From positions 1,526,839 to 1,590,838 of the forward strand of contig BPGT01000001.1 of assembly GCA_026003175.1 (NCBI GenBank): a stretch of 64,000 bases of DNA. Reading direction: 5' to 3'. Source of the stretch: Armatimonadota bacterium. Its GTDB lineage: Bacteria; Armatimonadota; HRBIN16. This document shows positions 3,209-23,087 of this stretch, piece after piece. Made by a program: the position numbers and the translations under genes. Within the stretch, counting starts at the first letter, position 1; each line of letters begins with the position of its first letter. The notes beneath the pieces are model-generated. The model saw only the letters and a list, made by a program, of their open reading frames with translations. It was not told the DNA's origin and searched no databases.

Positions 3209-3228
3209 GCTTATCCCTCCAGTTGGCG

Positions 3229-8357: not shown

Positions 8358-8394
8358 CGCGAAGTACACCTCCCTCCCTAAACCTTTTGGCGAT

Positions 8395-8403: not shown

Positions 8404-8486
8404 CGCCAGGCTGTATACGGGCATCGTCTGGTCCGCCTTGTCGCAGAGCACCAGCGAGGGGTTGTACTGCGTTATGGACATAGCGG

Positions 8487-8511
8487 CTCAAGAGTTGTAC
8501 CACCTCTTGAG
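8487..8511. promoter_or_regulatory. Inverted repeat, probable operator of the HxlR-type regulator
   Basis: CTCAAGAG and CTCTTGAG form a perfect 8-base inverted repeat with a 9-base centre, ending 13 bases before the regulator's ATG and abutting a TAAAAT -10-like box (8513-8518). Dimeric HxlR proteins typically bind such palindromes, so autoregulation is likely. If TAAAAT is used, transcription would begin at or next to the ATG, giving a leaderless message. Confidence 0.5.
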
Positions 8512-8524
8512 GTAAAATAAACAC

Positions 8525-8845
8525 ATGAAGGTCGACGAACGCGCACAACTGGTGGAAGTGTACGACTGCGTGACAGAGATTCTAAAATGTAAATGGACGC
8601 TGGCGATTCTGGATGCCATCGCTCGCGGTGTCAATCGCCCTGGCAGGCTGGAACGCGAGCTGCCCGGATTGACCACCAAAGTGCTGAACGAACGCATCCG
8701 CAAGCTGGAACGTTACGGTATCATCGTCCGGCAGGTATATCCTGAGATACCGCCGCGTGTGGAATATCTGTTCACCGAGCGGGGCAAGCGGTTACTGAAG
8801 CTGCTAGACGCGGTCAACGAGTTCGCCCGGCAGTGGAACGAGTGA
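8525..8845 (+). CDS. HxlR-family winged-helix transcriptional regulator
   Basis: A 106-residue MarR-like winged helix of the HxlR family. It has the hallmark KCKWTLAILDAI (about 21-32), the recognition region LPGLTTKVLNERIRKLERYGI and the wing PPRVEYLFTERG. One cysteine (Cys22) occupies the place used for redox or electrophile sensing in related proteins such as YodB and HypR, so thiol sensing is possible but not shown. The operator-like inverted repeat lies immediately upstream. Its last 42 bases overlap the 3' end of the methyltransferase gene on the other strand. Confidence 0.85.
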   Translation: MKVDERAQLVEVYDCVTEILKCKWTLAILDAIARGVNRPGRLERELPGLTTKVLNERIRKLERYGIIVRQVYPEIPPRVEYLFTERGKRLLKLLDAVNEFARQWNE

Positions 8846-9493
8846 GCCCTGGGGTGGGCGCAGGTCAAACACGATGACCTCTTGCTTGCTCTCCAGCAGG
8901 TGCGCGGTATGTTCGGTGAAGCCCACATGCCAGCCCGCCCGCTCCATCTCCACGATAAACTCCCATGCGGTATCGCGCCAGGGGTCCGCAAGAAAAACTC
9001 GACCACTGGCTGAGGTGACTTTCTGCAGTACCTTCTGCAACGATTCGTGCAGGTGACGCTCATACAGGATGTCTGCCGCAATGACTACGTCAAAGGGTAT
9101 CATATCGGGAAAGCGGCGCCAGTCTGCAAGCAGGGTCTGAATATCTCGTACCCCGTTCTGTGAGGCGTTCCAGAGGGCGAACTCCAGCGCATCAGGCTGG
9201 TAATCATTGAGCGTGACCTCCGCACCCAGCCATCGTGCTACTATCCCGCACAGCCCCAATCCGGCACCCAGCTCCAGCACCCGCTTGCCTCGCACCAGCT
9301 GCCGATTGTCGCATAGAAATTGGCACAGCGCCACTGCCGCGTGCCAGGGCACCGCCCAGAAGGGGATATCCTCGACGGAAAGAGTGTTGGTAAGCAGGTC
9401 GTCCACACTGCGCACAGCCGTTAACCGAAACGTCCGTCGGCAGAGCGGAATCGATACGGTGTGCGTCGGGTAGCGCAGGATGGCAGAGGTCAT
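8804..9493 (-). CDS. Class I SAM-dependent methyltransferase (METTL21/ETFbeta-KMT-like)
   Basis: A 229-residue Rossmann methyltransferase. The SAM-binding motif VLELGAGLGLCGIVARWLGA is near residue 72, the acidic ND follows in the next strand, and DVVIAADILYE is the post-II motif. This layout fits the lysine methyltransferase family that modifies proteins such as ETF-beta. The PFWAVPWHAAVAL stretch before motif I supports that group. The start overlaps the stop of the ABC ATPase gene (ATGA), so the two are co-translated. The 3' end overlaps hxlR convergently by 42 bases. The target is unknown. Confidence 0.72.
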   Translation of the reverse strand: MTSAILRYPTHTVSIPLCRRTFRLTAVRSVDDLLTNTLSVEDIPFWAVPWHAAVALCQFLCDNRQLVRGKRVLELGAGLGLCGIVARWLGAEVTLNDYQPDALEFALWNASQNGVRDIQTLLADWRRFPDMIPFDVVIAADILYERHLHESLQKVLQKVTSASGRVFLADPWRDTAWEFIVEMERAGWHVGFTEHTAHLLESKQEVIVFDLRPPQGSLVPLPGELVDRV

Positions 9494-10503
9494 CCGGCTG
9501 CGACCTCCGACTTCTGGGTGCTCAATCGGGCGCGCCCGGCAAAGATGTCGCGGATGACCTCTTCCGCTTCCACCTCGTCAATCACGATATCCACCACCGG
9601 CAGCTCCGAGAGCACCTGAGAGGCGATCTGCGTGGTGCGCGTGCGAGGAACCTCGATAACAGCACGCAAGTCATCCATCCCGCATACCACACCGAACCGC
9701 TCCAGCTGCTCGCGAGCTACCGGACGATCAAAGGTGAGTTTGAGCAGCTTGCTGTCCGAATACTGCTCCACCAGCGTCTTCAAGGTGTTATCAAAGATGA
9801 TACGTCCGTGGTCAATGATAATCACTCGTTCGCACAGCTCCTGAATATCCTGCATGTAGTGAGAGGTGAGCAAGATAGTGGTTTTCGCCTGGCGATTGTA
9901 CTCTTTCAAGAACTCACGAATGCGTTTCTGAGATACCACATCCAGCCCAATGGTAGGTTCGTCCAGAAACACCACCTTCGGTGCGTGCAGCAGTGCAGCC
10001 AGCAGCTCGCACTTCATCCGCTCGCCCAGGCTCATTCGCCGCACCTGTGTGTGTAGCAGCTTCTTGATGTCCAGCATCTCCGCCAGCTCGTTGACACGCC
10101 TCTCGAAGGTGCGGTCATCCACCTCGTATAGCTCTTTGAGCAGGATGAAGCTCTCATAGGCAGGCAGATCCCACCACAGCTGCATCTTCTGTCCCATCAC
10201 GATAGACATCTGCCTCTGGAAAGCAGGCTTGCGTTCCCATGGTACGTAGCCCATCACGGTGGCTCTGCCAGAGGTGGGGTAGAGGATACCCGACAGCATC
10301 TTGAGCGTCGTGGTCTTTCCTGCACCGTTCGGACCCAGGAACCCGACGAGTTCACCCTCCGCGATGGTAAAGGAGACCTCCTGCACGGCGTGTACCTCTA
10401 CCTTCTGGCGGGTGATAAGGCTTTTCAGCGCGCCCAGTGCGCCCTGCTCGCGCTTGTGGGTTACATACGTTTTGGAGAGCCTGTCTACCTCGATAATCGG
10501 CAT
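9490..10503 (-). CDS. ABC-2-type transporter ATP-binding protein (DrrA/NodI-like)
   Basis: A 337-residue ATPase of the drug/polysaccharide exporter class. Walker A GPNGAGKTTT lies near residue 47, the signature MSLGERMKCELLAAL follows, and Walker B is VVFLDEPTIGLD. A C-terminal DrrA-like extension follows (about 230-337). The ATG at 10503 is favoured over a GTG two codons earlier because GGAGG stands seven bases upstream. No ABC-2 permease gene lies beside it: the next gene is a methyltransferase and the upstream side is a divergent intergenic region. The partner must be encoded elsewhere. Confidence 0.85.
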   Translation of the reverse strand: MPIIEVDRLSKTYVTHKREQGALGALKSLITRQKVEVHAVQEVSFTIAEGELVGFLGPNGAGKTTTLKMLSGILYPTSGRATVMGYVPWERKPAFQRQMSIVMGQKMQLWWDLPAYESFILLKELYEVDDRTFERRVNELAEMLDIKKLLHTQVRRMSLGERMKCELLAALLHAPKVVFLDEPTIGLDVVSQKRIREFLKEYNRQAKTTILLTSHYMQDIQELCERVIIIDHGRIIFDNTLKTLVEQYSDSKLLKLTFDRPVAREQLERFGVVCGMDDLRAVIEVPRTRTTQIASQVLSELPVVDIVIDEVEAEEVIRDIFAGRARLSTQKSEVAAG

Positions 10504-10657
10504 GATCACACCTCCACCACACCTTTTTATGATACACCAGAGAGGGCGACGGGTTGCAAGCTCTGGCGACCGCCATGGCTGGAACTACCAGCATATGCCA
10601 GCCAGAACAAGCCATATTATTTTGGCTTGAAAAATATACGAATGGGGCAAAAACCGC

Positions 10658-10686
10658 TTGACAACCATGTGGGAACTAAATATACT
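10658..10686 (+). promoter_or_regulatory. Strong sigma-70-type promoter for the prepilin-like gene
   Basis: A perfect TTGACA (10658-10663), a 17-base spacer and TATACT (10681-10686). This is the best consensus match in the window. It implies a transcript start near 10693 and a leader of about 120 bases before the gene at 10815. Confidence 0.75.
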
Positions 10687-10740
10687 TAGAATAAATAATT
10701 ATACGAAAGGAGGTGGTTGCGATTACGGAGCAAGTGGTTT

Positions 10741-10774
10741 AGCAGATACTGTTTCCCGTAGTTCTCTGCTTTTT
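10741..10774 (+). terminator. Terminator-like hairpin inside the leader (possible attenuator)
   Basis: AGCAGA-T-ACT (10741-10750) pairs with AGT-TC-TCTGCT (10760-10770) around a GTTTCCCGT loop and runs into five Ts. It lies between the strong promoter and the prepilin-like gene, so it could stop transcription before the gene. Upstream at 10705 is a free AAAGGAGGTG ribosome site with no ordinary gene behind it, only a very short ATT-started frame. Confidence 0.4.
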
Positions 10775-10814
10775 GAAGACACGATTTCTGAAAACGCATG
10801 AAGGAGGGTGCAAG

Positions 10815-11819
10815 ATGAAACGACACGCTTTTACGCTCATCGAGCTGCTGGTGGTTATCGCGATTATCGCGATACTGGCAGCCATCCTGTTCCCGGTGTT
10901 CGCACAGGCACGTGAGAAAGCAAGGCAGGCTACCTGTGTGAGCAACATGAAGCAGATTGCTAACGCCTGGCTCATGTACTCGCAGGACTACGACGAGACT
11001 GGCTCCCCGATGTGGGTAAAGAGCAATCTGCGGACGGGTTGTGGTGGAGGCGGGGACCTGATAGACCCGAACTTCCGCGCCCCGTATAGCGGCACGCCGT
11101 GGGGGCAATACTGGCCCGACCTCATCTATCCCTACGTGAAAGCAGGGCGTGCTGCGAACTACGACGCGTCAGGCAACCCTATTTCTAAGGGTAATCGCGC
11201 AGTGTTTACCTGCCCCACAGGCGACAGCCGGCTAACCGTCCCAGGCGGTACCAGTGGTTGGGGTTCGCTGACCTACGGTATCAACCAGAGCTACGTGAAC
11301 TACGACCCGATTAACCCCGAAAGCGCGTGGAACGCGCCGGGCGGCGGTCCCGACTTCCTGTGCGGACAGGACCCGGGTTGTCAGTCGTGGGGATGGGGAT
11401 GCTCGAAGGGCGCGACTATTGCCAGACTGACTCACCCGGCTGACACCATCATGTTCATGGAGGGACTGGTCGGCGCGGGACCCGGCTGGTTTGGCGGCTG
11501 CTGTAGCCTGGACAACTACCCAGGCACCCGCGAGACGGTGATGGCGGGTATGGCTGCTGCCTATCCTGCCGAGGGCGGGTTCCCCGCAGGCTATCATCCG
11601 AACCGTCCCATCAAGCGCCAGCGCCTGGATGGCGTGGGCAGCTTCTGGGACTATGCCAGCGGCACGTTGAACGACGACGGGACAGTAATGCCTGTGCCTC
11701 TGTCTAACGACCGCGTGCTTTATGTGCATAACGGCGTCGCGAACTTCATCTTTGCCGACGGGCACGTGAAGGCACAACGGGTCACTTACATGCGTCAGCA
11801 TACCGCTTCGTCGGACTAA
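10815..11819 (+). CDS. Prepilin-type cleavage/methylation protein with H-X9-DG tail (DUF1559-like)
   Basis: A 334-residue type IV pilin-like protein. It has the classical leader [19 protein letters not shown] followed by [13 protein letters not shown], then a secreted domain ending in the H-X9-DG motif ([12 protein letters not shown]). The pilin leader is cut and methylated by PilD and the protein then enters a pilus or secretion pseudopilus. The start is the ATG at 10815 behind AAGGAGGG; a longer frame begins 14 codons earlier but breaks the leader pattern. Such proteins are abundant in Planctomycetota and Armatimonadota, where their role is unresolved. A hairpin and a small membrane protein gene follow. 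Confidence 0.88.
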
Positions 11820-11829
11820 CGCCCATTCG

Positions 11830-11861
11830 GCGAGTCGGCACGAACAGGCGTGCCGACTCGC
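11830..11861 (+). terminator. Perfect 13-bp hairpin after the prepilin-like gene
   Basis: GCGAGTCGGCACG (11830-11842) and CGTGCCGACTCGC (11849-11861) flank a six-base loop. No T-run follows and the next gene begins 24 bases later, so it may be a partial terminator or an mRNA-stabilising end rather than a full stop. Confidence 0.6.
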
Positions 11862-11884
11862 TGCTCACAAAGGAGGGTTCGTCA

Positions 11885-12187
11885 ATGCCGCAGGTCATCC
11901 GAAAGGGGCAACAGCAGGATAAGCTTCACCAGACCGTTTCTACTCCCGTAGTGATTCTGGCGGTGGTGGTGGTGCTGGCTTTTCTGGTGTTTATGGTGGA
12001 CCGCTTCATTACACCGGTGGTGCCGCGCAACACCAAGAAGCAAGAAGAAGAAGCATGGCAGAGGCAGCTGAAGCGAATGCAAGAGTCCATGCCGCAGGGC
12101 GGATGGGCATCCCCTGTACCCGGCATGCCTCCTGTGTACGTTCCACCGAAGGGGCAGTCGGTGGAGAACATTCCACCACCGAGATAA
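11885..12187 (+). CDS. Small single-pass membrane protein of unknown function
   Basis: A 100-residue protein with a short basic N terminus, one membrane helix (STPVVILAVVVVLAFLVFMV, about 19-38), a charged stretch (KKQEEEAWQRQLKRM) and a proline- and glycine-rich tail. AAAGGAGGG stands before the ATG. It follows the prepilin-like gene in the same direction, separated only by a hairpin, and may be co-transcribed with it. I do not recognise a family. The tail could sit in the periplasm or cytoplasm; the residues on either side of the helix do not decide it. Confidence 0.6.
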   Translation: MPQVIRKGQQQDKLHQTVSTPVVILAVVVVLAFLVFMVDRFITPVVPRNTKKQEEEAWQRQLKRMQESMPQGGWASPVPGMPPVYVPPKGQSVENIPPPR

Positions 12188-12192
12188 CTTGC

Positions 12193-12213
12193 GGGCGGGC
12201 AAGCAGCCCGCCC
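12193..12213. terminator. Hairpin between convergent genes
   Basis: GGGCGGGC (12193-12200) and GCCCGCCC (12206-12213) pair across a five-base loop. It lies between the convergent small membrane protein and ankyrin genes and can serve both strands. Confidence 0.6.
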
Positions 12214-12218
12214 CGAGC

Positions 12219-12890
12219 TTACTCCTTTGCCCCTGCTTTCAGCAGCAGCTGTTCTGCTTGCTTGCGGTTGTACTTACGTGCCAATGCCAGGGGGGATTCC
12301 CCACCGTTGGTCTTGACGTCCACCCGGGCTCCCTTCTGCAACAGCATCTTCACCACTTCCGGGTTACCGAACATCGCCGCCAGCGTAAGAGGCGTCTCGC
12401 CGTAGTTGTTGGTAGCGTTTACATCGGCGCCTCGCTCTATCAGTATCTTTGCCACTTCTACCTCGTTATCCGACAGCGCATACATCAGGGGTGTTCTACC
12501 GTTCACATCTTTGGCGTTGATGTCCGCTCCTTTTTCCAGCAGTCTGAGGAGCACAGCTGTTTGTGCACGCTGACGCGGATTTGCCGCCACCATTAGCGGA
12601 GTAACCCCGAACTTGTCTGCCGCGTTGACGTCCGCCCCGCGTTCTATCAACAGGTCAACTACCTCTACCGAACCGTTCAACGATGCCCACCATAGTGCTG
12701 TTTTGCCATGTTGGTCGCGGGCGTTGACGTCGATGCCTCTATCCAGCAGGGAGCGTACGGTATCCACGTCGCCCCGCGCCGCCGCCAGAAACAGCTCTCC
12801 TGTAGACCTGCCGCGCACAAACCACGCAACAGATACACCTGCCAGAACGAGCACAATGAGCAGCACTATCAGGCTGGAGCGTCTCATCAT
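12219..12890 (-). CDS. Ankyrin-repeat protein with N-terminal membrane anchor
   Basis: About 223 residues. It opens with a hydrophobic segment (SLIVLLIVLVLAGVSVAWFV) that is either an uncleaved anchor or a signal sequence. Six ankyrin-type repeats follow from about residue 30 to the end, seen in the recurring G-x-TPL and LLIERGADVNA consensus. Ankyrin repeats bind other proteins; the partner cannot be read from sequence. I place the start at the ATG at 12890, eight bases after AAGGA; a GTG two codons earlier is possible. It stands alone between a hairpin and the phosphatase gene. Confidence 0.8.
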   Translation of the reverse strand: MMRRSSLIVLLIVLVLAGVSVAWFVRGRSTGELFLAAARGDVDTVRSLLDRGIDVNARDQHGKTALWWASLNGSVEVVDLLIERGADVNAADKFGVTPLMVAANPRQRAQTAVLLRLLEKGADINAKDVNGRTPLMYALSDNEVEVAKILIERGADVNATNNYGETPLTLAAMFGNPEVVKMLLQKGARVDVKTNGGESPLALARKYNRKQAEQLLLKAGAKE

Positions 12891-12936
12891 GTCCACCGTC
12901 CTTGTCAGTATTTTTGCTTGCTAACCGTTTCGCGCT

Positions 12937-13464
12937 TCAGGTAATCATGTCCTTGCTAAGGTGTCCGATATAGTTGGTGTGTCGTACACGCAGCACGCCA
13001 TGTTCGTCCCACTCCAGCACCGAAATGCCTCCGTTGAAGTGCGTGAAGAGCGTGTGATGTGAGGTGTAGGTGAACGCACACACCAGGTGCGAGCCGAACG
13101 TGCCATGTGTGATCAGTACGATATTGTTCTCCTCTCGCACCGCAAACCGCCTCAGCACCTCCTCCGCCACTCGTTGCGCCCGTTCCCACATCTGCTCGCG
13201 GCTCTCCATCTCCGATTCGTACTCTCGCAGGTCGTCCCATGTTTCCGGTTCAAGGTCCACCGCCTGTGCCACAATCGCCGCGCTCTGCTGGGCACGCAGT
13301 AAGGGAGAGGTGAGCAGCCAGTGCATTCTGCCCGGCTCGCTCAGCAACCACTTTGCTACCCGTTTCATCTGCCTGCGCCCTAACAGGGTCAGCGGTGGGT
13401 CATCCAGCAGGGGCTGCCCTGCGTTGTTGGTGGACTGCCCGTGACGAACGATGTACACGCGCAT
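12937..13464 (-). CDS. Histidine phosphatase family protein (phosphoglycerate-mutase-like)
   Basis: A 175-residue member of the branch-1 histidine phosphatases. The phospho-accepting RHGQST lies at about 7-12, a LTLLGRRQ segment follows, a TSPLLRAQQSA stretch carries the second arginine, and a late LITHGTFG holds the second catalytic His. The family includes cobalamin-pathway, sugar-phosphate and nucleotide phosphatases, and nothing here selects one. It begins three bases after the queF stop, so both are probably expressed together. Confidence 0.82.
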   Translation of the reverse strand: MRVYIVRHGQSTNNAGQPLLDDPPLTLLGRRQMKRVAKWLLSEPGRMHWLLTSPLLRAQQSAAIVAQAVDLEPETWDDLREYESEMESREQMWERAQRVAEEVLRRFAVREENNIVLITHGTFGSHLVCAFTYTSHHTLFTHFNGGISVLEWDEHGVLRVRHTNYIGHLSKDMIT

Positions 13465-13467
13465 CGA

Positions 13468-13824
13468 CTACTTTTCGCCTCCTGCGACATAACTGGCAGT
13501 GACTACTGAGTAGATTCCCCCGCGCACATTGAACTCTCCTGTTACCGTCATGCGCCGAGGCTGACACACTGCTACCAGGTCGTCCAGAATTTTGTTTACC
13601 ACCGCTTCGTAGAAGATGCCCTGATTGCGGTAGGCGAAGAAGTAGTATTTAAGCGACTTGAGCTCTACGCACCTCTTATCGGGCACGTACTCGATGGTAA
13701 TCGTGCCAAAGTCCGGGTTGCCCGTTTTGGGGCACACCGAAGTAAACTCTGGGCAGACGTGCTTGATCAGATAGTCCCTGTCAGGGTAGGGGTTGTCGAA
13801 CACTTCTAGAATGTTTCTGTCCAT
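13468..13824 (-). CDS. queF: NADPH-dependent 7-cyano-7-deazaguanine reductase
   Basis: Reduces preQ0 to preQ1 in queuosine biosynthesis for tRNA wobble modification. The 118-residue length matches the short, single-module (B. subtilis-type) Que[17 protein letters not shown] holds the nucleophilic Cys and following Asp region, and the QueF motif [14 protein letters not shown] is intact. GAGGAGG precedes the ATG. No other queuosine gene is in the window. Confidence 0.93.
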
Positions 13825-13890
13825 AGCGATACCTCCTCTGCTTAACCATTGTACCGCATGGCTCTGGTGAGCAGGTAACGCTACACCAAC

Positions 13891-15291
13891 CTAATGCCGC
13901 TTCACGCCGAACATCCAGCGAACACCTATTCCGAACGTATTCTCGCCGGAGTCTTCGCGCATCCAGAAGAGCAAGTAGTCGTCCAGACGTTCTGCCGGTC
14001 GCCAGCGCACAAACGCGCCATACGAGCGGTGCAGCAGGCTACTGGCTGGGTGGTATTCTATCCCCACCTGCCACTGCCATCGGCGTAAAATCGGCGTGCC
14101 TTGCTCGCTGAAGGAAGAGAGCCTGTCCATCCATGCCACTGTAAGTCCCCATATCATAGCGGTGGTTTCCTCTCCGTTCCTCGGGTCAAGCCAGGTGTAC
14201 TGCCCCGACAGGTTGCACAAAACACCGGATTCTGGGGCAAGAGGAATTTGCTGTGCAAGCGCAAAGCCGACGGTCGTTGCCTTTCCCAGACGCCGAAAGG
14301 AGCGTGTCCCACCAGTGATCGCGAAATGGGGAACGAGGGCGGAACGCACCAGAGCGTAGTGCGCCTCCTGTACAGCGGTGCGGAAACGGGAAAAGAAGCG
14401 GTCAAACTCCTCGCCGCGTGAGCCAAACATCCCCTGCATCTTGCCGATGGATCTCCCAAACGGCGCGACCAGACCTTCATAGGTGTTTCGTAACTCCTCA
14501 AGCCGCCGAGGATCGTTGCTCAGCTCTTCCACTAGCGGTTGCAGCTGGCGAATGCCCTCATGCACAAGGGGAGCGCCAGCCTTCAGCGACTCCACCGCCT
14601 CCGCAATCTGGCGCACCTCCGTAATCATCCGCGTCACATCGGATGTGCTGAGGTGATAAACTTCCGCTGCCAGAACCCGCAAGGCACGAGAGGCGGCATA
14701 TTTACTTGGCGTCACCTCGTGCTTTGCGAACAGGGCAAATCCTTCGTCCAATGGTTGCAAGTGCATATATTGCCCGGTGATGTCCAGCGCAATCGTATCG
14801 TCGCTATAGGTTACCCCCACGGAGAAGAAAGAGCTGTCACTGTCCTCGTGAAACCGAAGGGCGGGGTACAGGGCTACCAGGTACGGGACGTCCACCCGCC
14901 GCTCGGTGAATCGCGATAGTGCCTCATCCAGCCTTTCCAGCGACACCTGAAGAGCTGGCAACAGGATGTTCAGGTTGTTCAGTTTGTTCTGGAAATCACC
15001 CCCGTCTCTCGGGGGGGCGAGCAAAGGTGTCATTTGCAGTAACTGCTCCACCACTTCCTGTTTGTACCTGTCAACTCGCTCGCTGAGGGTTTTCATCGTA
15101 GTGACGGTATAGACGAGACGGCTTTTATCACTGTTGTCGAGGTAGGGGATTATCTGCTGAACAGAAGATGTTGTACCCGGGTCCGGTAGCAACTTCCTGT
15201 GAGCACCTTTTTGCGCTTCTCCTGCCGAACCGCCAATGAATACCACCCCTATACAGCACCCTGTCAACAGACACTTTCTTACAAGCTGCAT
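13891..15291 (-). CDS. Secreted, possibly outer-membrane, protein of the CHAT cassette
   Basis: A 466-residue protein with a probable signal peptide (VRKCLLTGCCIGVVFIGGSA), a helical middle with long charged stretches (about 55-300), and a C-terminal third of alternating strands ending RWMFGV, which resembles a short beta-barrel. I recognise no named family. The preferred start is the ATG at 15291 behind GAGGGA; a GTG at 15306 overlaps the CHAT gene stop as GTGA. It is the last gene of the four-gene sigma/CHAT operon. The lack of any internal promoter suggests that it acts with that system, perhaps as an envelope-located target, pore or sensor. That role is inference only. Confidence 0.6.
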   Translation of the reverse strand: MQLVRKCLLTGCCIGVVFIGGSAGEAQKGAHRKLLPDPGTTSSVQQIIPYLDNSDKSRLVYTVTTMKTLSERVDRYKQEVVEQLLQMTPLLAPPRDGGDFQNKLNNLNILLPALQVSLERLDEALSRFTERRVDVPYLVALYPALRFHEDSDSSFFSVGVTYSDDTIALDITGQYMHLQPLDEGFALFAKHEVTPSKYAASRALRVLAAEVYHLSTSDVTRMITEVRQIAEAVESLKAGAPLVHEGIRQLQPLVEELSNDPRRLEELRNTYEGLVAPFGRSIGKMQGMFGSRGEEFDRFFSRFRTAVQEAHYALVRSALVPHFAITGGTRSFRRLGKATTVGFALAQQIPLAPESGVLCNLSGQYTWLDPRNGEETTAMIWGLTVAWMDRLSSFSEQGTPILRRWQWQVGIEYHPASSLLHRSYGAFVRWRPAERLDDYLLFWMREDSGENTFGIGVRWMFGVKRH

Positions 15292-15302
15292 TCTCTGTTC
15301 CC

Positions 15303-18275
15303 TCACAATTCCTGCAGTCGCCGACGAACCACCTGGATATCAGGATGTTCCGAAGGGTACACCATCTCGAACACATCCAGCGCATGGCAGTAAGCTGAGC
15401 GCGCTCCTTCTACGTCTCCTCTTCCCTGCAAGGCGTCACCGAGGTATACTAGGCTCTCTCCCATATCTGCCACATCCGCTCCGAACGTCCTTTCGTAAAT
15501 GGATGCCGCCTGCTGGTGGCACTCGATAGCCTGCTGGTATTGCCCCGCTTTGGTGAGCACACGCCCTATATTGTTCAAACGAATAGCCACGCGGAGATGC
15601 CTCCTTCCGTACAGCCGCTCGTCTATCTCCAGTGACTCACGCAAGTAGCCCATTGCTGCCTGCAAATCGCCCTGCGCCTCGTGCAAAGTGCCCAGATTGT
15701 TCAGAATGGTGGCTACTGTAGCGTGCTCGCGCCCGTACGTTTCCGTTGCCTGATGGAGAGCCTGCTCATAGTATAGTTGCGCCTGCGAGAGGTCGCCGTT
15801 CATCTTCAGTACATATCCCGCGGTGTTCAGACACTCCACCATTTCGGGCGCGGAAGGTGGAAGATGCTGTCTTGCCAGGCGAAGCGCCTCCTGGGCGTAG
15901 TACAGCGCCCTCTCGGGTTGACGTGCCTGCTCGCAGGTGTATCCCAATTGCCTCATACAGAGCACGACATGTATCGGCTCATCGGGGTGGAGGATCGGGA
16001 CATGGTGTAACGCCCCCTCCAGCAGAGCTACCGACTCGGTGAAGCGGCTGGATTCGGTAAGAGCCAGTGCCAGCTGCACCATCAGTGCGATTCGTTCGCG
16101 GGAAGGGGCGTCCTTCTGTGTGGATGCTACCAGTGCCAGTGCGGTTTCCGTCTCCTCGCGCACGCGCGCCCAGTTCTGTGTCTTATTTGCTTCGGCGAAC
16201 CATCGAGCCAGTACAGCGCAAGCCATTCGTCTTCGTATGGCGTGCTCCGCAGGGGTAGCGCTCTCACCTGCGAACAGCCTCACCAGCTCATGGAAACGCA
16301 GACGACCGTTCGGCATCAGCATCGCCAGCGTTGCATCGCATAGCTCGGACACAGCCTCTTCGAACTGCACGTTGTCTAGCGTCTCACATAGCTCTACCAG
16401 CAGGGTAGTGCTTACAGAAGAGGCGCACAGGACAGCAGCTGTCTCTAGGACCTGCTTTGCCTCGCTGGTGAGAGAGCCTGTGGATACCGATAGCGCATCA
16501 TAGATGCTCCCCTCGTGTCCGGTGGTGCTCTGGAAGGTATATCGTGCCTGCTGGAGAGTATCCAGCGGGTTCTGTATGTGGTGGAGGTAGTCCTCAAACG
16601 ACATACGTAGTCGTGCGACGTGGCTGGCGATGAGGCTCAGCGCCAGGGGCAAATATCCTACCAGTCGGGCAAGTTGTCTTGCCGCTTCCAGCTCGCCCTC
16701 GGTACGCGCTTCATGACGGCACTGCAGCAGCATCAGCGCCGCCTCTTCGTCCAGGGGGGGTACCTGTATCACGCGGTATCCCTCCTGCACCAGGGAGGCG
16801 CGTTGTGTGGTGACCAGCAAACGACACTGTTCGCCGTGCGGTATCCAGGACGATTCGGTGGCTTCACTCAGGTTGTCCAGCACCACCAGAGTGCGCTCCG
16901 AAGCTTCACTCAGTTGCTTCCGAACTGCCTGTGCGCATTCCCTGGCGCTTCTTCCTTCCGATCGCTCTCCCTGCAGGAGAGTTAGCGACACGTACTGGTC
17001 TATGAGCCGTTGAGAGCTGGAAGCGTCCAGCCAGAACACCCCGCCGGGGTAGCTGTTGGCAAAGGTGCGGGCATACTCCGCCGCTACCTGCGTTTTGCCA
17101 ATGCCGGGGAACCCGACCAACGCTGCAGACTCCGAGGCGGACAGAGTGCGGTGAACCTGCACCAGAAGGCCCCGCCTGCCTACGAAGTCCGGGTTTGCGG
17201 CGAAGGGGATAGAGATAACATGCACCGTATCGGTGGGCTCGGGAGAAAACAGGGTGGCGGTAGCACTATTGAGGAACAGTACCGGCGTTCCCCAATCGGT
17301 ACCGAGCGTGCGAAGGTGACGACGGGCTTCACAAAGTGCTTCGTCAACCGCCCCGTGCGCGGCTATCACTTCGTAGAGCACCCCGGTAAACTCAGGTGCA
17401 CTTTGGTCCCGGAACCTCGCCTGCATAGCTACCACTGCGGGCACACCCGCTTGCGAGAGTGTCTCGGCGACACCTTGTACCGCCCCAGCCGAGAGGCACG
17501 AGGTCAACACTACCATTTTTACTCCGGGCAAGGGAAGCCATTCCGCGACCTGGTCAGCAAATACAAGGCTTTCAGTGGCGGGATCCGTACCGTGCAACAC
17601 CAGAAACGCTCCCGATGGGCGAGCATCACTGTGTCCCGCAAAATGCACGACGTGAGGAGCGGGCGGCATTCTCAGCCGATGATAGAGAGCGGCGGGGGTG
17701 GCGATGTCGATGTGCTCTATGCTCGCAGCATGTGCAGGGAGAGTAGCTAGCGCACGGCGGATTTGAGCAACCTCTTCCTCAACCGCTGAAAGAGCAGGGT
17801 AACCGGGCGTAGCGGGATTGGCAGAAACCACCAGCACCCGAAGGCTCCCCACGCTGTCTATTCGGGTATCTCTCGGCGCAGCCGGGCAGCGAACTAGCAA
17901 CAGGTTCGGGTGAAGGCAGAGAAACCCCCCAGGCGTACAGACATATTCCCAAGGCAGTGACGCCAGTGAAGGAGAGGAGAAATGAACACGAAGACGCACT
18001 TTTTCGCTGTGCAGTAGCGGCTGTAGTGCTTGCAGAATCGGCGACGGCAGAAGCACCGACGCCAGCTGCTCACCCAGCTCCTGCACCAGACTTTGCGGAA
18101 ACTGCCCGGGTGCCAGGTTCTGCATGGGAGCAAGATACTGCCGGCGCAGGTAGGGGATGTCGAGCGGAGGTGTGTGAGCACAGGCTAGTAACGCGCCGTT
18201 CTCATAGCGTGCCAGCTTCACAAGGTAGCCCGAGTGGTCCTGCTCTGGGCTTATGGTCAGGCACAGGTCGTGCAT
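15303..18275 (-). CDS. CHAT protease / NB-ARC (STAND) NTPase / TPR fusion
   Basis: A 990-residue modular protein. Residues 95-345 form a CHAT caspase-like peptidase: LASLPWEY, VVHFAGHSD with the catalytic His near 215, and VLTSCLSAG with the catalytic Cys near 260. Residues 365-600 are an NB-ARC NTPase with Walker A GFPGIGKT (388-395), Walker B LVVLDN (463-468), a sensor LLVTT and a GYLPLAL motif. From about 740 to the end are some six TPR units. This is the plan of STAND signalling switches: the TPRs sense a ligand, nucleotide exchange opens the molecule, and the protease acts. CHAT enzymes work in bacterial conflict and cell-death systems. It overlaps the preceding gene by 19 bases. Confidence 0.88.
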   Translation of the reverse strand: MHDLCLTISPEQDHSGYLVKLARYENGALLACAHTPPLDIPYLRRQYLAPMQNLAPGQFPQSLVQELGEQLASVLLPSPILQALQPLLHSEKVRLRVHFSSPSLASLPWEYVCTPGGFLCLHPNLLLVRCPAAPRDTRIDSVGSLRVLVVSANPATPGYPALSAVEEEVAQIRRALATLPAHAASIEHIDIATPAALYHRLRMPPAPHVVHFAGHSDARPSGAFLVLHGTDPATESLVFADQVAEWLPLPGVKMVVLTSCLSAGAVQGVAETLSQAGVPAVVAMQARFRDQSAPEFTGVLYEVIAAHGAVDEALCEARRHLRTLGTDWGTPVLFLNSATATLFSPEPTDTVHVISIPFAANPDFVGRRGLLVQVHRTLSASESAALVGFPGIGKTQVAAEYARTFANSYPGGVFWLDASSSQRLIDQYVSLTLLQGERSEGRSARECAQAVRKQLSEASERTLVVLDNLSEATESSWIPHGEQCRLLVTTQRASLVQEGYRVIQVPPLDEEAALMLLQCRHEARTEGELEAARQLARLVGYLPLALSLIASHVARLRMSFEDYLHHIQNPLDTLQQARYTFQSTTGHEGSIYDALSVSTGSLTSEAKQVLETAAVLCASSVSTTLLVELCETLDNVQFEEAVSELCDATLAMLMPNGRLRFHELVRLFAGESATPAEHAIRRRMACAVLARWFAEANKTQNWARVREETETALALVASTQKDAPSRERIALMVQLALALTESSRFTESVALLEGALHHVPILHPDEPIHVVLCMRQLGYTCEQARQPERALYYAQEALRLARQHLPPSAPEMVECLNTAGYVLKMNGDLSQAQLYYEQALHQATETYGREHATVATILNNLGTLHEAQGDLQAAMGYLRESLEIDERLYGRRHLRVAIRLNNIGRVLTKAGQYQQAIECHQQAASIYERTFGADVADMGESLVYLGDALQGRGDVEGARSAYCHALDVFEMVYPSEHPDIQVVRRRLQEL

Positions 18276-19420
18276 TCGTCAGGTACTCTCAGTCGCATCC
18301 TCACTAATGTCGTGCTGGGCAGGACACCTGCCGGCAAGCCGGGGGCTTCAGCAAGGAGTTCCATGCTTTCCGCCTGCCACAGGCTGACCTCCCACTCGCC
18401 TATCTTCTGCCATGCCGCAGGCGTGACGCGCAATTCCACAATCAGGTGGCGGTCCGGGTAACGCTGGCGCACCTCGTCGGGCAGGCGAACACGCATTCGA
18501 AACCGCTCGTTCACGCATTCCGGCAGCCCCAGTATCTCTGCCCATGCTGGCGTTTCTCCCTCCAGCTCCAGCGGGACACGCACCTGCTGCCCGCCAAAGG
18601 ATAGCGGCACAGTGCTCAGTTCCACCACCAGATACCCCTGCGGGAGACCTCCTGCTGGCAGGGAACCAAATGTCGGCGGCAACGGAAGCACAGCTTCGTA
18701 CTGACCGCCGAAGACCTCTCCAGCCGCCAGGGGAACGATTTCTCCCCCCATGTTCACAGCGATGGCTATGGGCGCGCCCGAGAGGTGTGCGGCAGGCGAA
18801 CCATCTGGTTGCCGTAGGATAACCCGCAGAGAGATATCGCCTTCGGGAGTGACGATGAACCTGTCCACGATGGTCTCTATATCCTGGGGCACCCCTTCCG
18901 CCAGAAGTACCTGCGCCCTGTCGCCGGAACGTGCTAGTGCGAACGTAGGCATCCGCATCATCACCGTCCAGCGATGCCACACTGCGCTCAGCAGTGTGAA
19001 AGCCCCCATCTTCGTCCCGGCTCCTTCGCTCACCATTGTGTGCGAGCGCTCCCACCAGCGCGGCAGGCGTGTGAGCGATTCTGTTTGCACGGATACCATC
19101 TCCAGCCATATTCGCGCTACCTGTGTCTGAAGGTCATCACCTGTGCACATCCTGTGGATATCTCTCAGAGACAGTCGCTGCAGCTCACCCAGCACCTCGT
19201 CAACCCGAAGCCAGATCTCTCGTATGGCGAAGCCGGCGGTCAAGGCTCCCTCCACTGTTTCCGCCTCCTGCGCCGTGAGCAACCCGGCGCAGTAACGCAC
19301 TAGCATTGCGATATCGATCGGTTCCTCCGTAGGGGGAGCTAGCGCTCTTTGTTTCCTCAGCCACTCGCCCAGGATCCGCGTGCCGTGCGAACTCCATGCA
19401 TACTCCCGCTTATTCTGCAT
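18257..19420 (-). CDS. Unknown protein with anti-sigma-like N terminus, in the sigma/CHAT cassette
   Basis: A 387-residue protein I cannot assign to a named family. Residues 40-85 (MLVRYCAGLLTAQEAETVEG) resemble the helical, zinc-free anti-sigma N-terminal pattern. The rest is rich in beta-strand patterns with many proline turns (about 150-370), like one or two beta-sandwich domains. No membrane helix is visible. It starts 11 bases inside the end of the sigma factor gene behind AAAGGAGG and overlaps the CHAT gene by 19 bases. A sigma-antagonist or sensor role is inferred from the N-terminal resemblance and gene order. Confidence 0.5.
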   Translation of the reverse strand: MQNKREYAWSSHGTRILGEWLRKQRALAPPTEEPIDIAMLVRYCAGLLTAQEAETVEGALTAGFAIREIWLRVDEVLGELQRLSLRDIHRMCTGDDLQTQVARIWLEMVSVQTESLTRLPRWWERSHTMVSEGAGTKMGAFTLLSAVWHRWTVMMRMPTFALARSGDRAQVLLAEGVPQDIETIVDRFIVTPEGDISLRVILRQPDGSPAAHLSGAPIAIAVNMGGEIVPLAAGEVFGGQYEAVLPLPPTFGSLPAGGLPQGYLVVELSTVPLSFGGQQVRVPLELEGETPAWAEILGLPECVNERFRMRVRLPDEVRQRYPDRHLIVELRVTPAAWQKIGEWEVSLWQAESMELLAEAPGLPAGVLPSTTLVRMRLRVPDECTTCA

Positions 19421-20588
19421 CGCTCACACCTCCTTTCCATTGCTGGTAAAATCTGGCAAGCCGCTGTGCCAGTCTCCCGTTGCTGAGCCAGACGTTGAGC
19501 ATCCCCATCGTGAGATGATAGCCAGCGCACTCGGCGGCGGGAAACATCCTTTCACAGATATCAACGTGAGCCAAGCCATCGTGATAACAGTACTGAAACG
19601 CAAGCCGTTGCCACAAGCCCGCGCTGGATACCACTTCTGTGAGGTCCGCCCCGCCTGCCTGCTCGAAACGCTCCAGCAGCTGTGCCATCTGCTGCCGAAA
19701 AGGAAGCCTTTGCTGGAATCGCTCCTGCAACCCCTGTATCTCCCCCGCGGAGAAGGGGCAGTCCACACGCTGGCGCATCCTGTTCGGTTGCAGTCCGTAG
19801 CGATATCGCCACGCAACAAACCAGGCTTCTTCCCAGGTGGAGACGCCTGGCGGTGGCGTCCACGAGGTAGCGCATTGCAAGAGACACCGGACCGCCTCGT
19901 CCACCTGCTTTTCGGTAAACGGTTCAGGCAGCTGCAACAGGTAACCCGTTAAACGGTCGTTGGAATAGTAAAGGGTGTGATAGCAAAGGTGTCTCAGTAC
20001 CCCAGGCTGCGTTAGCCAAACGTCAAGAGTGCTGCGGTCCAGCCGGATGCCGGTGGGCAAGAGCAGGTGCACTATCTCCTGCCACGATTTACCGTGCAGG
20101 TAATAGAGCTGGGCGGCGAGCAGGCGAACGTGATGCATTCGTGGGGGAACGTGCGCGTCCAGTCCCAGCCACAGGAGGTCGGCGGCGAGATACAGCTCCT
20201 TCGCCAGCATCGCTGCTGCCAGCGAGTCAGCAGTGTCGGCGATGTGCGTGGCCTCCGGTTCCTCAATATCGTCCAGCGAAAGGGTTTCCTGTACCAGGCG
20301 TCGGCGCATATCGATCATGCATCGGTACGCGGTGCGCCGGATGAATGCAAACCATGCCTGCTCACCCTGATTACGGAACCGGTCGCGAGAAGCCCATATC
20401 CGCAGGAAGCAGTCCTGAATCACATCTTCACGGTCATCCACGTTATGCAGCCATACGCTGAGGTAGCGGAGAAGGTAGGGGCGGCTCACCTTCCAGAGGT
20501 ATTCCCAAGCCTCACGCGCTCTCCCCTCGTTGGCGTCTGCCAGCAAGTGCAGCACCTGGTCCAGTTGTGCGCGGGTGCTGGTTTGCAC
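19410..20588 (-). CDS. ECF-like sigma factor with a long C-terminal extension
   Basis: Residues 30-115 match sigma-70 region 2 (RPYLLRYLS, DREDVIQDCFLRIW, RRTAYRCMIDMRRR). The protein is about 392 residues, twice the length of an ordinary ECF factor. The extension contains two similar helix-turn-helix-like segments, HGKSWQEIV with LDVWLTQPG, and HDGLAHVDI with LNVWLSNGRL, suggesting an internal duplication of region-4-like modules. The start is the GTG at 20588 (GGGAG seven bases before). The longer frame begins with a GTG whose next codons contain the -10 box TATAAT, so it cannot be translated. It should drive its own operon, autoregulation being typical of the class. Confidence 0.72.
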   Translation of the reverse strand: MQTSTRAQLDQVLHLLADANEGRAREAWEYLWKVSRPYLLRYLSVWLHNVDDREDVIQDCFLRIWASRDRFRNQGEQAWFAFIRRTAYRCMIDMRRRLVQETLSLDDIEEPEATHIADTADSLAAAMLAKELYLAADLLWLGLDAHVPPRMHHVRLLAAQLYYLHGKSWQEIVHLLLPTGIRLDRSTLDVWLTQPGVLRHLCYHTLYYSNDRLTGYLLQLPEPFTEKQVDEAVRCLLQCATSWTPPPGVSTWEEAWFVAWRYRYGLQPNRMRQRVDCPFSAGEIQGLQERFQQRLPFRQQMAQLLERFEQAGGADLTEVVSSAGLWQRLAFQYCYHDGLAHVDICERMFPAAECAGYHLTMGMLNVWLSNGRLAQRLARFYQQWKGGVSDAE

Positions 20589-20615
20589 CGCTTCTCTCCC
20601 GAGGCGTAATGGCTT

Positions 20616-20645
20616 ATTATACACCTTTCACCAGGTTGTTGTCAC
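20616..20645 (-). promoter_or_regulatory. Promoter of the sigma/CHAT operon
   Basis: On the minus strand GTGACA (20645-20640) lies 18 bases before a perfect TATAAT (20621-20616). The start of transcription would be near 20609, about 20 bases before the sigma GTG. The -35 box touches the first base of the repeat array, so the repeat may have brought or altered control sequences. Confidence 0.6.
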
Positions 20646-21055
20646 TAGCAACCGAGGGTGTTCGAAATTGCTGGTTGAATGGATAGATAACCTAACCCCC
20701 TTGCCCCCTTCCCTGCAAGGGAAGGGGGAACGCCCCTCTCCTCGTAGGAGAGGGGACGGGGGTGAGGTAAGGCAGGGATAGCAAGAACGCCTCTCTCCTT
20801 GCGCTACAACCAACTTCTCAACAATTCTCGAACACCCTCCTAGCAACCGAGGGTGTTCGAAATTGCTGGTTGAATGGATAGATAACCTAACCCCCTTGCC
20901 CCCTTCCCTGCAAGGGAAGGGGGAACGCCCCTCTCCTCGTAGGAGAGGGGACGGGGGTGAGGTAAGGCAGGGATAGCAAGAACGCCTCTCTCCTTGCGCT
21001 ACAACCAACTTCTCAACAATTCTCGAACACCCTCCTAGCAACCGAGGGTGTTCGA
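20645..21055. repeat. Two tandem 195-bp units with terminal inverted repeats plus a partial third
   Basis: Each unit is a 9-base direct repeat CTAGCAACC followed by a 186-base body (20654-20839 and 20849-21034). The body starts with GAGGGTGTTCGA and ends with its inverse. A third CTAGCAACC plus GAGGGTGTTCGA begins at 21035. Inside each body are two perfect hairpins: CCCCTTCCCT/AGGGAAGGGG and CCCCTCTCC/GGAGAGGGG. The hairpin core closely resembles the units at 59481-59987. Reading frames across it are spurious. The following 21056-21258 shows no gene I can support. Confidence 0.85.
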
Positions 21056-21258
21056 AAAATCGCATAGACCCCACACCCATACCCGACCACCTTGCCTATA
21101 ACCCAACGCCACCAGTTTCACGTGCGACCGCTGCCGACGAACCTGCGCCCCACCCAACCAGCGCATCAGAAACTTCGCCGTATGACTTCGAGCGAGTGTT
21201 AGTTCATCCCTGAATATTTCGTTTATTGAACAGAACGCTGTGAGAGGAGATAACCACG

Positions 21259-21732
21259 ATGTACATCCCAGAGAGATGGGAAAGTCGTCAGCTCGGTGAG
21301 TGGAACTTGCTGGTCAAGGGGCTGATGGAGGCTTGGGACTGTGCAGAGGCATTGGGCTTGGACGAGTGCCTGCGCCTGCACCTGAACAGCGATGCGAGCG
21401 GGCAGCTAGCAGAGCTGCTGAGCTACATGGGGCGCCATGAGGCGGGCACTCTGCGTTTGGGAAGTGTGCCTCGGAGAGAAAGCGACAACCAGAACAACGG
21501 GCATTCCCATGACGATAGCGAGGTCGAGGCGTACATGCAGAGCACCTACAGCGGAAAATATCCAACCGAACAGGCTTACGCGGGAGCGCAGCTGGTGCGC
21601 GATTTCCTGCTGAGGGTCGAGCAGTTCGCAGAGGAGAAAAGGCTGGCTACCCATGACCTCCGCCGCATCCTCTGTGAGGCAATGTGCGTCTACTCGGCAA
21701 ACGAAGAGATTCCCTTTCCGCTCTCTTCCTGA
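21259..21732 (+). CDS. Hypothetical protein, 157 residues
   Basis: No family recognised. A GAGAGGAG site 11 bases upstream of the ATG supports translation. The N-terminal 65 residues are helical with a WNLLVKGLMEAWDCAEAL segment. The middle (about 70-95) is hydrophilic and low in complexity with several His and Asp. The C-terminal 60 residues are helical (AGAQLVRDFLLRVEQFAEE). There is no signal peptide or membrane helix, so it should be cytoplasmic. It stands alone between a repeat array and an unusual double inverted repeat. Confidence 0.55.
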   Translation: MYIPERWESRQLGEWNLLVKGLMEAWDCAEALGLDECLRLHLNSDASGQLAELLSYMGRHEAGTLRLGSVPRRESDNQNNGHSHDDSEVEAYMQSTYSGKYPTEQAYAGAQLVRDFLLRVEQFAEEKRLATHDLRRILCEAMCVYSANEEIPFPLSS

Positions 21733-21833: not shown

Positions 21834-23003
21834 CTACCTAACCTGCATGGCGATCTGACGATGGCGTGCCAGGTTGTGCAGCACCTTCGTCTCCCAATCC
21901 GGCGGGTCGGGGATACCAAACATCCTGCGTTTAGTCTCCAGATAGAACAGGTAGTTTTCGTAGGTCACATCGGGTGGGCAGCGGTGGTCTACATGTGGGA
22001 TGTATCCCCCTTCCTCCACCAGCGGTTTCAACCTCTCCAGCTCCCTGACGATTGCCTCTTTGCCCGCGATGAGCTGCGTCTTGTCTACTCCGCCCATCAG
22101 CCGCACCGACTTGCCGAACTTCTTGCGAATCAGCACGGGGTCGGAGCCAGCGCGCACCTCCAGTGGGAACATCACGTTCACCCCCCCTGCCAGCCAGTGC
22201 TCCACCAGCTGCAGGATATTGCCGTCGCAGTCCACATACACGATGTCCACCCCGAACCGGTCGCGCAGGTAGTCGGTAATGCGTTTGTAGCGAGGGGTCA
22301 TCCATTGCCGGAACAGTTTCGGCGAGATGATAGGTCCCTTGTTGAACGCCATGTCCTCCCAGAAGGAGGCGTAGTCCAGCTCCACATCGGCGGGGATTTT
22401 GCTGATAGCGGTCAACGCCATCTCCGTGAGATGTTCCATAATCTCTTCTACCAGATCAGGCTGGTCCACGCAAGCGTAGGAGACGCCTTCGAAGCCCATC
22501 CAGTCGCGAATCCAGCCAAACAGACTTCCGCAATACACACCCAGCGGGTAATCACGGTTTGCCACCGACTTTTTCCATGCCTCCCAGTCGGCGGGGTAGC
22601 GGCGCGGGTCATCGGGGTCTAAGCGTTTCTTGAACTCCAACCAGTCCTCGCGGCTCTTGATAGGGAACTCCAGGTAGTGCGGGATGGTGGAGGTACCATC
22701 CTTGTAGACGATGCTCTTCACGCCCACCCCGTCTATCTGGATGCGATAGCGATCGGTCTCCTCCAGCACCTTTGCTTCGAAGGGCGGTATCAGTCCCAGG
22801 TTAATGGGCACGCCTCCGCGCGGAGCGAAGCCAAAGAACTGGTTCGCCTTCCACTCGTCGTCCACCCATTCGGGCAAGCCCTGCTTGTGCCACTCGGTGT
22901 ATGTCTCCGTCCAGTAGCCGAACTCCTCGTCGGGCACGTGGTCTACCGGCTCGTAATGAAACGTCCTTAGCCACCTTTCACGGTGCGTTAAGGTCTCTCC
23001 CAT
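21834..23003 (-). CDS. Uroporphyrinogen-decarboxylase-family protein (not HemE-type)
   Basis: A 389-residue TIM-barrel protein of the URO-D superfamily. Marks include THRERWLRTFHYEPVDHVP at the N terminus, WEDMAFNKGPIISPKLFR, a VDCDGN strand and RLMGGVDKTQLIAGKEA near the C terminus. The arrangement fits the large group of corrinoid-methyltransferase-like and uncharacterised relatives rather than true HemE: the N-terminal arginine pattern of HemE is absent and no haem genes are nearby. The start at 23003 has GGGGGAG nine bases upstream; the frame is open for 12 more codons. The substrate is unknown. Confidence 0.72.
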   Translation of the reverse strand: MGETLTHRERWLRTFHYEPVDHVPDEEFGYWTETYTEWHKQGLPEWVDDEWKANQFFGFAPRGGVPINLGLIPPFEAKVLEETDRYRIQIDGVGVKSIVYKDGTSTIPHYLEFPIKSREDWLEFKKRLDPDDPRRYPADWEAWKKSVANRDYPLGVYCGSLFGWIRDWMGFEGVSYACVDQPDLVEEIMEHLTEMALTAISKIPADVELDYASFWEDMAFNKGPIISPKLFRQWMTPRYKRITDYLRDRFGVDIVYVDCDGNILQLVEHWLAGGVNVMFPLEVRAGSDPVLIRKKFGKSVRLMGGVDKTQLIAGKEAIVRELERLKPLVEEGGYIPHVDHRCPPDVTYENYLFYLETKRRMFGIPDPPDWETKVLHNLARHRQIAMQVR

Positions 23004-23087
23004 CGGCTCTTTCTCTCCCCCGGTTGATGTACCCACCATTTCTCGGCGGATGGGGGTAAGTCCTGCGGGTAGTCAGGAGAGGTTTGT

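Follow-up and report, generated by a model that had tools for sequence, protein, structure and literature searches.

A conserved Armatimonadota cassette of an ECF sigma factor, a predicted anti-sigma factor and a CHAT-NB-ARC-TPR protein

We analyzed a stretch of 64,000 nucleotides (the window; positions below count from its first letter) from an Armatimonadota bacterium of the HRBIN16 lineage (GenBank assembly GCA_026003175.1, contig BPGT01000001.1, positions 1,526,839 to 1,590,838; genome G000, 4.1 Mb), in which four minus-strand genes encode an extended extracytoplasmic function (ECF) sigma factor, a predicted anti-sigma factor, a protein that joins a CHAT protease to an NB-ARC domain and TPRs, and a predicted outer-membrane β-barrel. 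The cassette, from a little-studied bacterial phylum, is a real, conserved and new wiring of known parts. From its sequences we propose, with moderate confidence, that it may act as a receptor-protease switch in the cytoplasm that controls a dedicated ECF sigma factor and in which the NB-ARC-TPR part, a receptor of the STAND (signal transduction ATPases with numerous domains) class, would turn on the CHAT protease against the anti-sigma factor. The core features are as follows (G000 is the window's own genome, other G numbers denote the genomes of relatives, and L numbers denote loci).

19410..20588, minus strand: gene 1, extended ECF sigma factor, 392 residues from the probable start GTG 20588 (Sigma70_r2 and ECF profile match)
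18257..19420, minus strand: gene 2, predicted soluble zinc-less anti-sigma factor, 387 residues (hhalign, AlphaFold2 model)
15303..18275, minus strand: gene 3, CHAT-NB-ARC-TPR protein, 990 residues, a STAND receptor with a caspase-like protease (Pfam)
17631..17633, minus strand: CHAT catalytic His215 (kept in 21 of 21 aligned homologues)
17496..17498, minus strand: CHAT catalytic Cys260 (kept in 21 of 21 aligned homologues)

The core proteins

The open reading frames (ORFs) of the four genes (19410-20624, 18257-19420, 15303-18275 and 13891-15306) all match a preliminary description of the window made from its letters alone, and consecutive genes overlap by 11, 19 and 4 bases, as described there; with gene 4 read from ATG 15291, the last overlap becomes an 11-base gap instead. 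This order recurs in other genera and families and is therefore more than chance.

Gene 3 matches the Pfam families CHAT (PF12770, 8.9e-30), NB-ARC (PF00931, 3.8e-11) and TPR_12 (1.5e-31). The CHAT dyad consists of His215 and Cys260 and the P-loop reads GFPGIGKT, so that the intact dyad, intact P-loop and TPRs that the preliminary description had noticed are all present by Pfam and by alignment. The alignment holds 21 CHAT homologues, including the window's own and two from L071, a locus of G218 with two CHAT-NB-ARC genes in tandem (2517-8998). The His-Cys dyad is kept in all 21, the opposite of the loss in most homologues that the preliminary description had taken as telling against its reading; such conservation without exception indicates that CHAT catalysis is under selection. 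The Walker A P-loop, GxxGxGK[TS], is kept in 20 of the 21 and is degenerate in L018 (genome G041), where a DNA methyltransferase, predicted by eye, directly follows the CHAT gene (1035-2459). Sequence matches of gene 3 in the PDB point to AfsR and Apaf-1 for the NB-ARC part, 8tl0 for the CHAT part and kinesin light chain for the TPRs; AfsR is the best NB-ARC match among the PDB matches listed, and 8tl0 is the only CHAT-named chain among the best 60 of 94 (E 1.1e-18, residues 149-329). The best NCBIfam match is the TPR protein of the FxSxx-COOH system (FxsT) over residues 360-984, which reaches 229 bits against a curated cut-off of 300. Plasmid records gave 188 matches, none covering 80% of gene 3; the best 15 cover the NB-ARC-TPR part, one of them starting at residue 209. 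No export signal was seen on inspection of the CHAT protein, and gene 3 is the only CHAT gene found in the window's genome.

Gene 2 has no family in Pfam, NCBIfam or PADLOC. Profile comparison by hhalign aligned the N-termini of 22 gene 2 homologues with 14 ordinary anti-sigma N-termini at 90.8% (E 1.2e-6, residues 38-100; score 34.7, against 13.2 for the best of 200 column shuffles, so that 0 of 200 were as good), giving the label "anti-sigma-like" of the preliminary description a firmer footing. The ordinary set came from 18 ORFs directly after ordinary ECF genes, found at 20 places in the phylum, of which four were excluded by eye as not anti-sigma-like before the comparison and four others were trimmed N-terminally. 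The protein comprises an N-terminal class-I-like anti-sigma domain (residues about 38-100), a helical linker and two β-sandwich domains. Its AlphaFold2 model (mean predicted local distance difference test, pLDDT, 78.8) has helices at residues 37-44, 50-62, 64-81 and 97-117, further helices and the two β-sandwiches, whose structural matches are middling (Z up to 6.3). No part of the window's gene 2 reaches the hydrophobicity of a membrane helix, and only one of the 22 homologues (L017) has such a stretch. Gene 2 is thus predicted to encode a class-I-like, zinc-less and soluble anti-sigma factor. Class I anti-sigma domains (ASDI) are described as a three-helix bundle with a fourth helix, and soluble and zinc-less members are on record (PMC7406223). 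The N-terminal three-helix bundle and following helix of gene 2, next to an ECF gene, resemble this layout, and its solubility and lack of a zinc motif agree with traits reported there, whereas the C-terminal double β-sandwich sets it apart from typical class I members.

Gene 1 matches only Sigma70_r2 in Pfam (PF04542, 33.4 bits against a cut-off of 24), with no Pfam match for region 4. Its profile aligns with ordinary ECF sigma factors at 99% over residues 37-193 (numbered in the 404-residue reading), entering the helix-turn-helix of region 4. Region 2 and this region-4-like helix-turn-helix are followed by a C-terminal module of no known family, which is conserved in the 29-row alignment. 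A tandem duplication of region 4 within this extension (residues 329-385) looked suggestive by eye and was rejected, the profile alignment giving only 3-10% probability. Plasmid records hold one match to gene 1, restricted to region 2.

Conservation in the phylum and a fused variant

A gene 2 search of 151 genomes, the window's and those of relatives (E up to 0.01), found matches in 13, nine of them in cassettes or sigma/gene 2 pairs; the four weak ones (G072, G079, G097 and G114; E 0.004-0.007) have no cassette genes beside them. The sigma profile, run on 291 genomes of the phylum, also returned many ordinary ECF sigma factors, and long matches were examined by their neighborhood. This gave 29 extended-sigma loci in 25 genomes, a lower bound, as at most six candidates were scored in most genomes; L089, with a sigma gene of ordinary length, and L090, with a sigma fragment at a contig end, stand outside the 29. 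A separate gene 2 homologue is present in 22 of the 29 loci (the weakest assignments being L084, E 7e-5, and L078, E 3e-6), and a CHAT-NB-ARC gene lies beside it in 20 of these 22: after gene 2 in the same direction in 18, divergent in L072 and convergent in L078. Two of the 20 linkages cross contig breaks. In G059, the sigma gene and the gene 2/CHAT pair are on different contigs and the linkage is putative; in G041, most of the sigma gene is on another contig and its C-terminal end is on the gene 2/CHAT contig. The tie of the sigma/anti-sigma pair to a CHAT-STAND protein, as the preliminary description had it, thus recurs in the phylum, where CHAT accompanies a separate anti-sigma gene commonly rather than rarely. 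The four-gene unit of that description was seen complete in 7 of the 29 loci (a lower bound), and the general core is the first three genes.

A scan of 84,980 species genomes with one peptide pattern gave 33 pattern matches and 10 relatives, all of them Armatimonadota by title or, for HRbin16 and an Abditibacteriales metagenome-assembled genome, by contigs placed there in other searches; a one-pattern scan has low recall and does not prove that the cassette is confined to the phylum. The near named relatives are likewise from Armatimonadota, namely Chthonomonadia Ch118 and HRbin16, the latter being the contig of G003 from the same genus. In the window, the cassette's neighbor is a gene that we take, from its sequence, to be queF-like. 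In G005, a contig end beside the queF-like gene carries a barrel gene and, of a CHAT-type gene, the TPR end (L153, G005:C292). This genome is among the six of the genus without a detected extended sigma factor, and its cassette was missed by the gene 1, gene 2 and CHAT-family searches; with this partly assembled copy counted, the cassette is present in at least 5 of the 10 genus genomes.

The remaining seven loci (L075, L079, L080, L081, L083, L085 and L087) carry one STAND-type protein without CHAT after the sigma gene. An NB-ARC match was found in five of these proteins (one just under the cut-off) and other AAA/STAND models in the rest; TPRs occur in six, weakly in two. In profile-profile comparison, their N-terminus aligns with the gene 2 domain at 95.9% and with ordinary anti-sigma factors at 76.8%. 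Individually, an anti-sigma-like N-terminus was detected in four of the seven (26.7, 21.4, 17.8 and 9.5 bits; the E-values of this search are calibrated on seven sequences only) and was not detectable in the other three. In the sigma tree, computed without two partial sigma rows (L015 and L082), six of the seven loci group together with support of 91/93, among several long and unsure branches. This fused STAND/anti-sigma variant places the receptor and the anti-sigma domain in one pathway, of which proteolysis is not a universal part.

Candidate promoters, a fifth gene and the predicted barrel

Beyond the core, the following features belong to the locus.

13891..15306, minus strand: gene 4, predicted outer-membrane β-barrel protein (AlphaFold2 model, structural matches), starting at GTG 15306 or, more likely, at ATG 15291
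21259..21732, plus strand: fifth gene, 157 residues, no Pfam family, divergent from the sigma gene (homologue linkage)
20616..20645, minus strand: putative housekeeping-type promoter GTGACA-18-TATAAT of the four-gene operon (11/12 consensus)
21197..21226, plus strand: ECF-type promoter-like site TGTTAG-N17-CGTTTAT upstream of the fifth gene (shared with relatives)

The start codon first assigned to the sigma gene, GTG 20624, sits just upstream of a -10 box: it is directly followed by TATAAT, with GTGACA 18 bases upstream of the latter. GTGACA-18-TATAAT is the best promoter-like site of the region, agreeing at 11/12 positions. The promoter scan found 3 such sites against 3.0 expected from shuffles and so proves nothing alone. 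The sequence TGTATAAT and the downstream GTG-Val-Gln-Thr are kept in three genus members, the window and the two relatives with this region assembled (G001 and G003). Because TATAAT abuts GTG 20624 and these elements are conserved, the sigma factor probably starts at GTG 20588 and has 392 residues. The visible promoter of the four-gene operon thus appears to be of the housekeeping rather than the ECF type, which leaves the suggestion that the sigma factor transcribes its own protease switch unsupported; the conserved ECF-like site precedes the fifth gene instead. The gap from the sigma promoter to the fifth gene contains two identical 195-base direct repeats (window 20645-21034), the first overlapping the -35 box by one base, and a third copy begins after the second and reaches at least 21057. 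Since the gap between the sigma gene and the fifth gene is only 194 bases in G001 and 218 in G003, the repeats were apparently inserted in the window's genome.

The fifth gene was missed in the preliminary description of a four-gene cassette, although the four genes named there do exist. Strong homologues occur in 5 of the 291 genomes (the window's, G001, G003, G059 and G070), all divergent to an extended sigma gene. As the search profile was built from those same five, the telling result is the lack of any others beyond a weak match (5.9e-4) in G162 and a fragment at another place of the window's genome. This fragment (L155 7308-7415; G000:C1:1283307-1283414) matches residues 115-150 and lies near a gene resembling the occupant of the cassette's place in G004, where a different gene stands instead of the cassette. 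The fifth gene was found in none of the six genus genomes without a detected extended sigma factor, nor in G007, whose contig begins inside the sigma gene. In G009, the counterparts of window 8511-13846 and 21892-23070 follow each other colinearly, separated by only 32 bases, and the five-gene block is therefore wholly absent.

The site TGTTA[AG]-N17-CGTTTAT precedes the fifth gene at identical spacing in G000, G001, G003 and the distant G070, that is, in four genomes of two families. Across the ten genus genomes, TGTTA-N18-CGTTTAT has three occurrences, all before the fifth gene, against one for the reversed control, and it is the sole exact match in each of G000, G001 and G003. When one mismatch was allowed, these three genomes gave 7 sites and the reversed control pattern 8; the genomes have in common just the three exact sites upstream of the fifth gene. 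The 21 other cassette genomes hold six occurrences in five genomes (reversed control, four), one before the fifth gene of G070 and one inside the sigma gene of G198. From its ECF-like form and its place, we infer that the site before the fifth gene may be the promoter of the cassette's sigma factor. A second exact site lies on contig G070:C133 (L164 224-253), before the gene of a repeat-containing protein that is predicted to be secreted; it is a possible second target and was not replicated.

Gene 4 has no Pfam match over the cut-off. Its AlphaFold2 model (pLDDT 69, from five sequences only) has a helix at the N-terminus, other helical stretches and 12 strands; confidence is very low for the first two strands. 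Outer-membrane barrels lead its Foldseek list (best E 1.4e-3, none under 0.001), and in structural alignment a designed barrel reaches Z 14.6, while OpcA, KdgM and NanC reach 12.9; helical bundles also match the gene 4 helices. The N-terminus is hydrophobic and signal-peptide-like, as judged from hydrophobicity and not by a predictor. Gene 4 is thus predicted to be an outer-membrane β-barrel with helical inserts. The barrel gene was seen in 7 of the 29 loci (the window, L014, L016, L019, L020, L077 and L082), which all belong to families f1 and f7; the count is a minimum, as some contigs end inside the CHAT gene or before the barrel's place. For the barrels of L019 and L020, the assignment depends on position together with a weak pairwise similarity (E 0.09 and 0.002). 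In L077 (G157), two barrel genes stand in tandem (3267-6135). Since the protein is a predicted outer-membrane barrel, occurs in so few loci and faces a CHAT protein without a visible export signal, the idea that this envelope protein is the protease's target appears unlikely, and the anti-sigma protein is the better candidate for cleavage.

A proposed switch and its rivals

From the domains, the intact dyad and P-loop, the anti-sigma homology, the linkage, the fusion variant and the promoter footprints, all of which are read from the sequences themselves, we infer the binding, the cleavage, the ligand, the direction of signaling and the identity of the targets in the following model. At rest, the N-terminal domain of gene 2 would hold the sigma factor, with basal expression of the sigma factor, gene 2 and gene 3 from the housekeeping promoter. 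A signal at the TPR/NB-ARC part, together with ATP, would lead to STAND oligomerization and switch CHAT on. Active CHAT would then cut the anti-sigma factor, perhaps within the β-sandwiches or in the linker that is weakly predicted around residues 158-166, and the freed sigma factor would transcribe its regulon, of which the divergent fifth gene is the best candidate target. The outer-membrane barrel may be an accessory output or a surface partner in some families.

Cleavage of ECF sigma inhibitors by a CHAT or Lon protease has published precedents (PMC10028731, PMC11417357). In the case of Craspase/DiCASP, the TPR-CHAT protease Csx29 cleaves Csx30, which in the authors' model relieves inhibition of the sigma factor CASP-sigma; as in the window, a TPR-CHAT protease is encoded beside an ECF-type sigma factor and an inhibitor protein, which in Craspase binds the sigma factor (PMC10028731). 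There, however, Csx29 is switched by the CRISPR RNA-guided complex (Cas7-11), whereas the window's CHAT protein carries its own NB-ARC STAND domain. No cas genes or arrays are among the best 25 of 136 Pfam families of 125 neighbors of cassettes in other genomes, and no search aimed at them was made. CalpL/CalpT/CalpS form a similar triad of Lon protease, anti-sigma factor and ECF sigma factor in type III CRISPR, with Lon and a SAVED sensor for cyclic tetra-adenylate (cA4) in place of the CHAT and NB-ARC-TPR parts of the window (PMC11417357). The CHAT part of gene 3 also resembles the SAVED-CHAT type III CRISPR protease 8tl0 (named in PMC11417357). Unlike gene 3, the latter senses through its SAVED domain and has no NB-ARC. 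The 8tl0 system reportedly runs a proteolytic cascade. Neighborhoods of EACC2-caspases are described with an ECF sigma factor and a DUF1822 TPR protein, and STAND fusions occur (Kaur et al. 2021, PMC8195603); they share with the window a caspase-superfamily protein beside an ECF sigma factor and a third protein, but the third protein is a TPR protein there and an anti-sigma domain with β-sandwiches here. DUF1822 is absent from the matches listed for genes 1-4 (for gene 3, the best 25 of 27) and for nine gene 2 homologues. The NB-ARC-TPR architecture of gene 3 is shared with FxsT and AfsR, although the FxsT match falls under its cut-off and leaves the CHAT part uncovered. Cyanobacterial sigma factors with an NB-ARC accessory domain are also reported (PMC11119718). 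Among the matches listed from the open-access literature, subscription journals being mostly outside the search, none describes STAND-CHAT control of a sigma/anti-sigma pair.

Several points weigh against the proposed switch. Cleavage of gene 2 by gene 3, its key step, is a prediction, as is the binding of the sigma factor. CHAT is present in 150 of the 291 genomes, so most CHAT genes of the phylum lie outside the cassette, and L021 and L086 have a sigma gene and gene 2 without CHAT beside them. The fused STAND variant lacks CHAT altogether, and the family can therefore work without proteolysis. Regarding gene 2, the column shuffles are a lenient control of its anti-sigma match because shuffling also destroys helix periodicity; structure searches (Foldseek, VIA-align) gave lists filled by β-sandwich domains, in which the anti-sigma domain went unseen; and the gene 2 profile has no match among PDB chains within E 5, the presence of a full Csx30 chain in that set being unchecked. 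Gene 2 is likened to Csx30 in its proposed role. As for the candidate target site, only a degenerate form stands upstream of the fifth gene in G059, and other cassette genomes carry the pattern at unrelated positions as well. Its motif was read off the alignment by eye, so the genus copies are not independent, and the G070 copy provides the independent support.

A first rival is non-proteolytic control, in which the NB-ARC-TPR part binds or rearranges the anti-sigma domain by partner switching and CHAT is separate or auxiliary: all seven CHAT-less loci, the four detectable anti-sigma-like N-termini and the grouping of six of these loci in the sigma tree are in line with it. Yet wherever CHAT is present its dyad is intact, as expected under selection for catalysis, and we place this account on the unlikely side. 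An anti-phage or cell-death role, in which activated CHAT cleaves essential host or phage proteins, the sigma pair regulates expression and the barrel or the fifth gene is the executor, seems to us decidedly unlikely. STAND NTPases and caspase-superfamily peptidases do recur in prokaryotic conflict systems (PMC7159879, PMC8195603), and the patchy presence in the genus with a clean empty site in G009 would suit an accessory module gained and lost. However, the PADLOC library (dating from 2023) has no match in genes 1, 2 and 4, and in gene 3 nothing beyond a generic TPR model (E 9.9e-10), which gives no support to the phage defense or toxicity suggested in the preliminary description. A defense-island context was likewise not supported: 125 cassette neighbors from 26 regions of other genomes, including the L018 methyltransferase, match 40 PADLOC families, of which the best 25 are each matched by one member only (single members match the Septu and type II methyltransferase models), and their Pfam families (best 25 of 136) are mainly metabolic or housekeeping. 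An envelope-stress system, with the barrel as the sensed or regulated component and CHAT-STAND as a protein-quality or signal relay, is highly improbable. The barrel gene follows CHAT in the seven f1 and f7 loci, one of which has two copies, and its model matches outer-membrane barrels; against this, 13 of the 20 core loci gave no barrel homologue (some contigs end too early), and the window's anti-sigma factor, without a membrane-helix-like stretch, would provide no envelope relay by itself.

Bacterial STAND (NLR-like) proteins are best known from defense and cell death. If the proposed receptor-protease switch is true, a STAND-type receptor would drive gene expression by way of regulated proteolysis, as in the CRISPR-linked Craspase and Calp. 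A broader form of this proposal, possible if somewhat doubtful, is a CRISPR-free NLR-like switch, in which an apoptosome-like receptor's own caspase-like protease cuts the anti-sigma factor to start a transcriptional response and the protease-free receptor/anti-sigma fusion is a second form within the same sigma family; Craspase and Calp would then be the CRISPR-wired cases of a wider design. With the fused variant, the question whether proteolysis is required or receptor assembly is enough becomes directly testable in two related natural systems, and the predicted promoter before the fifth gene would be a ready reporter.

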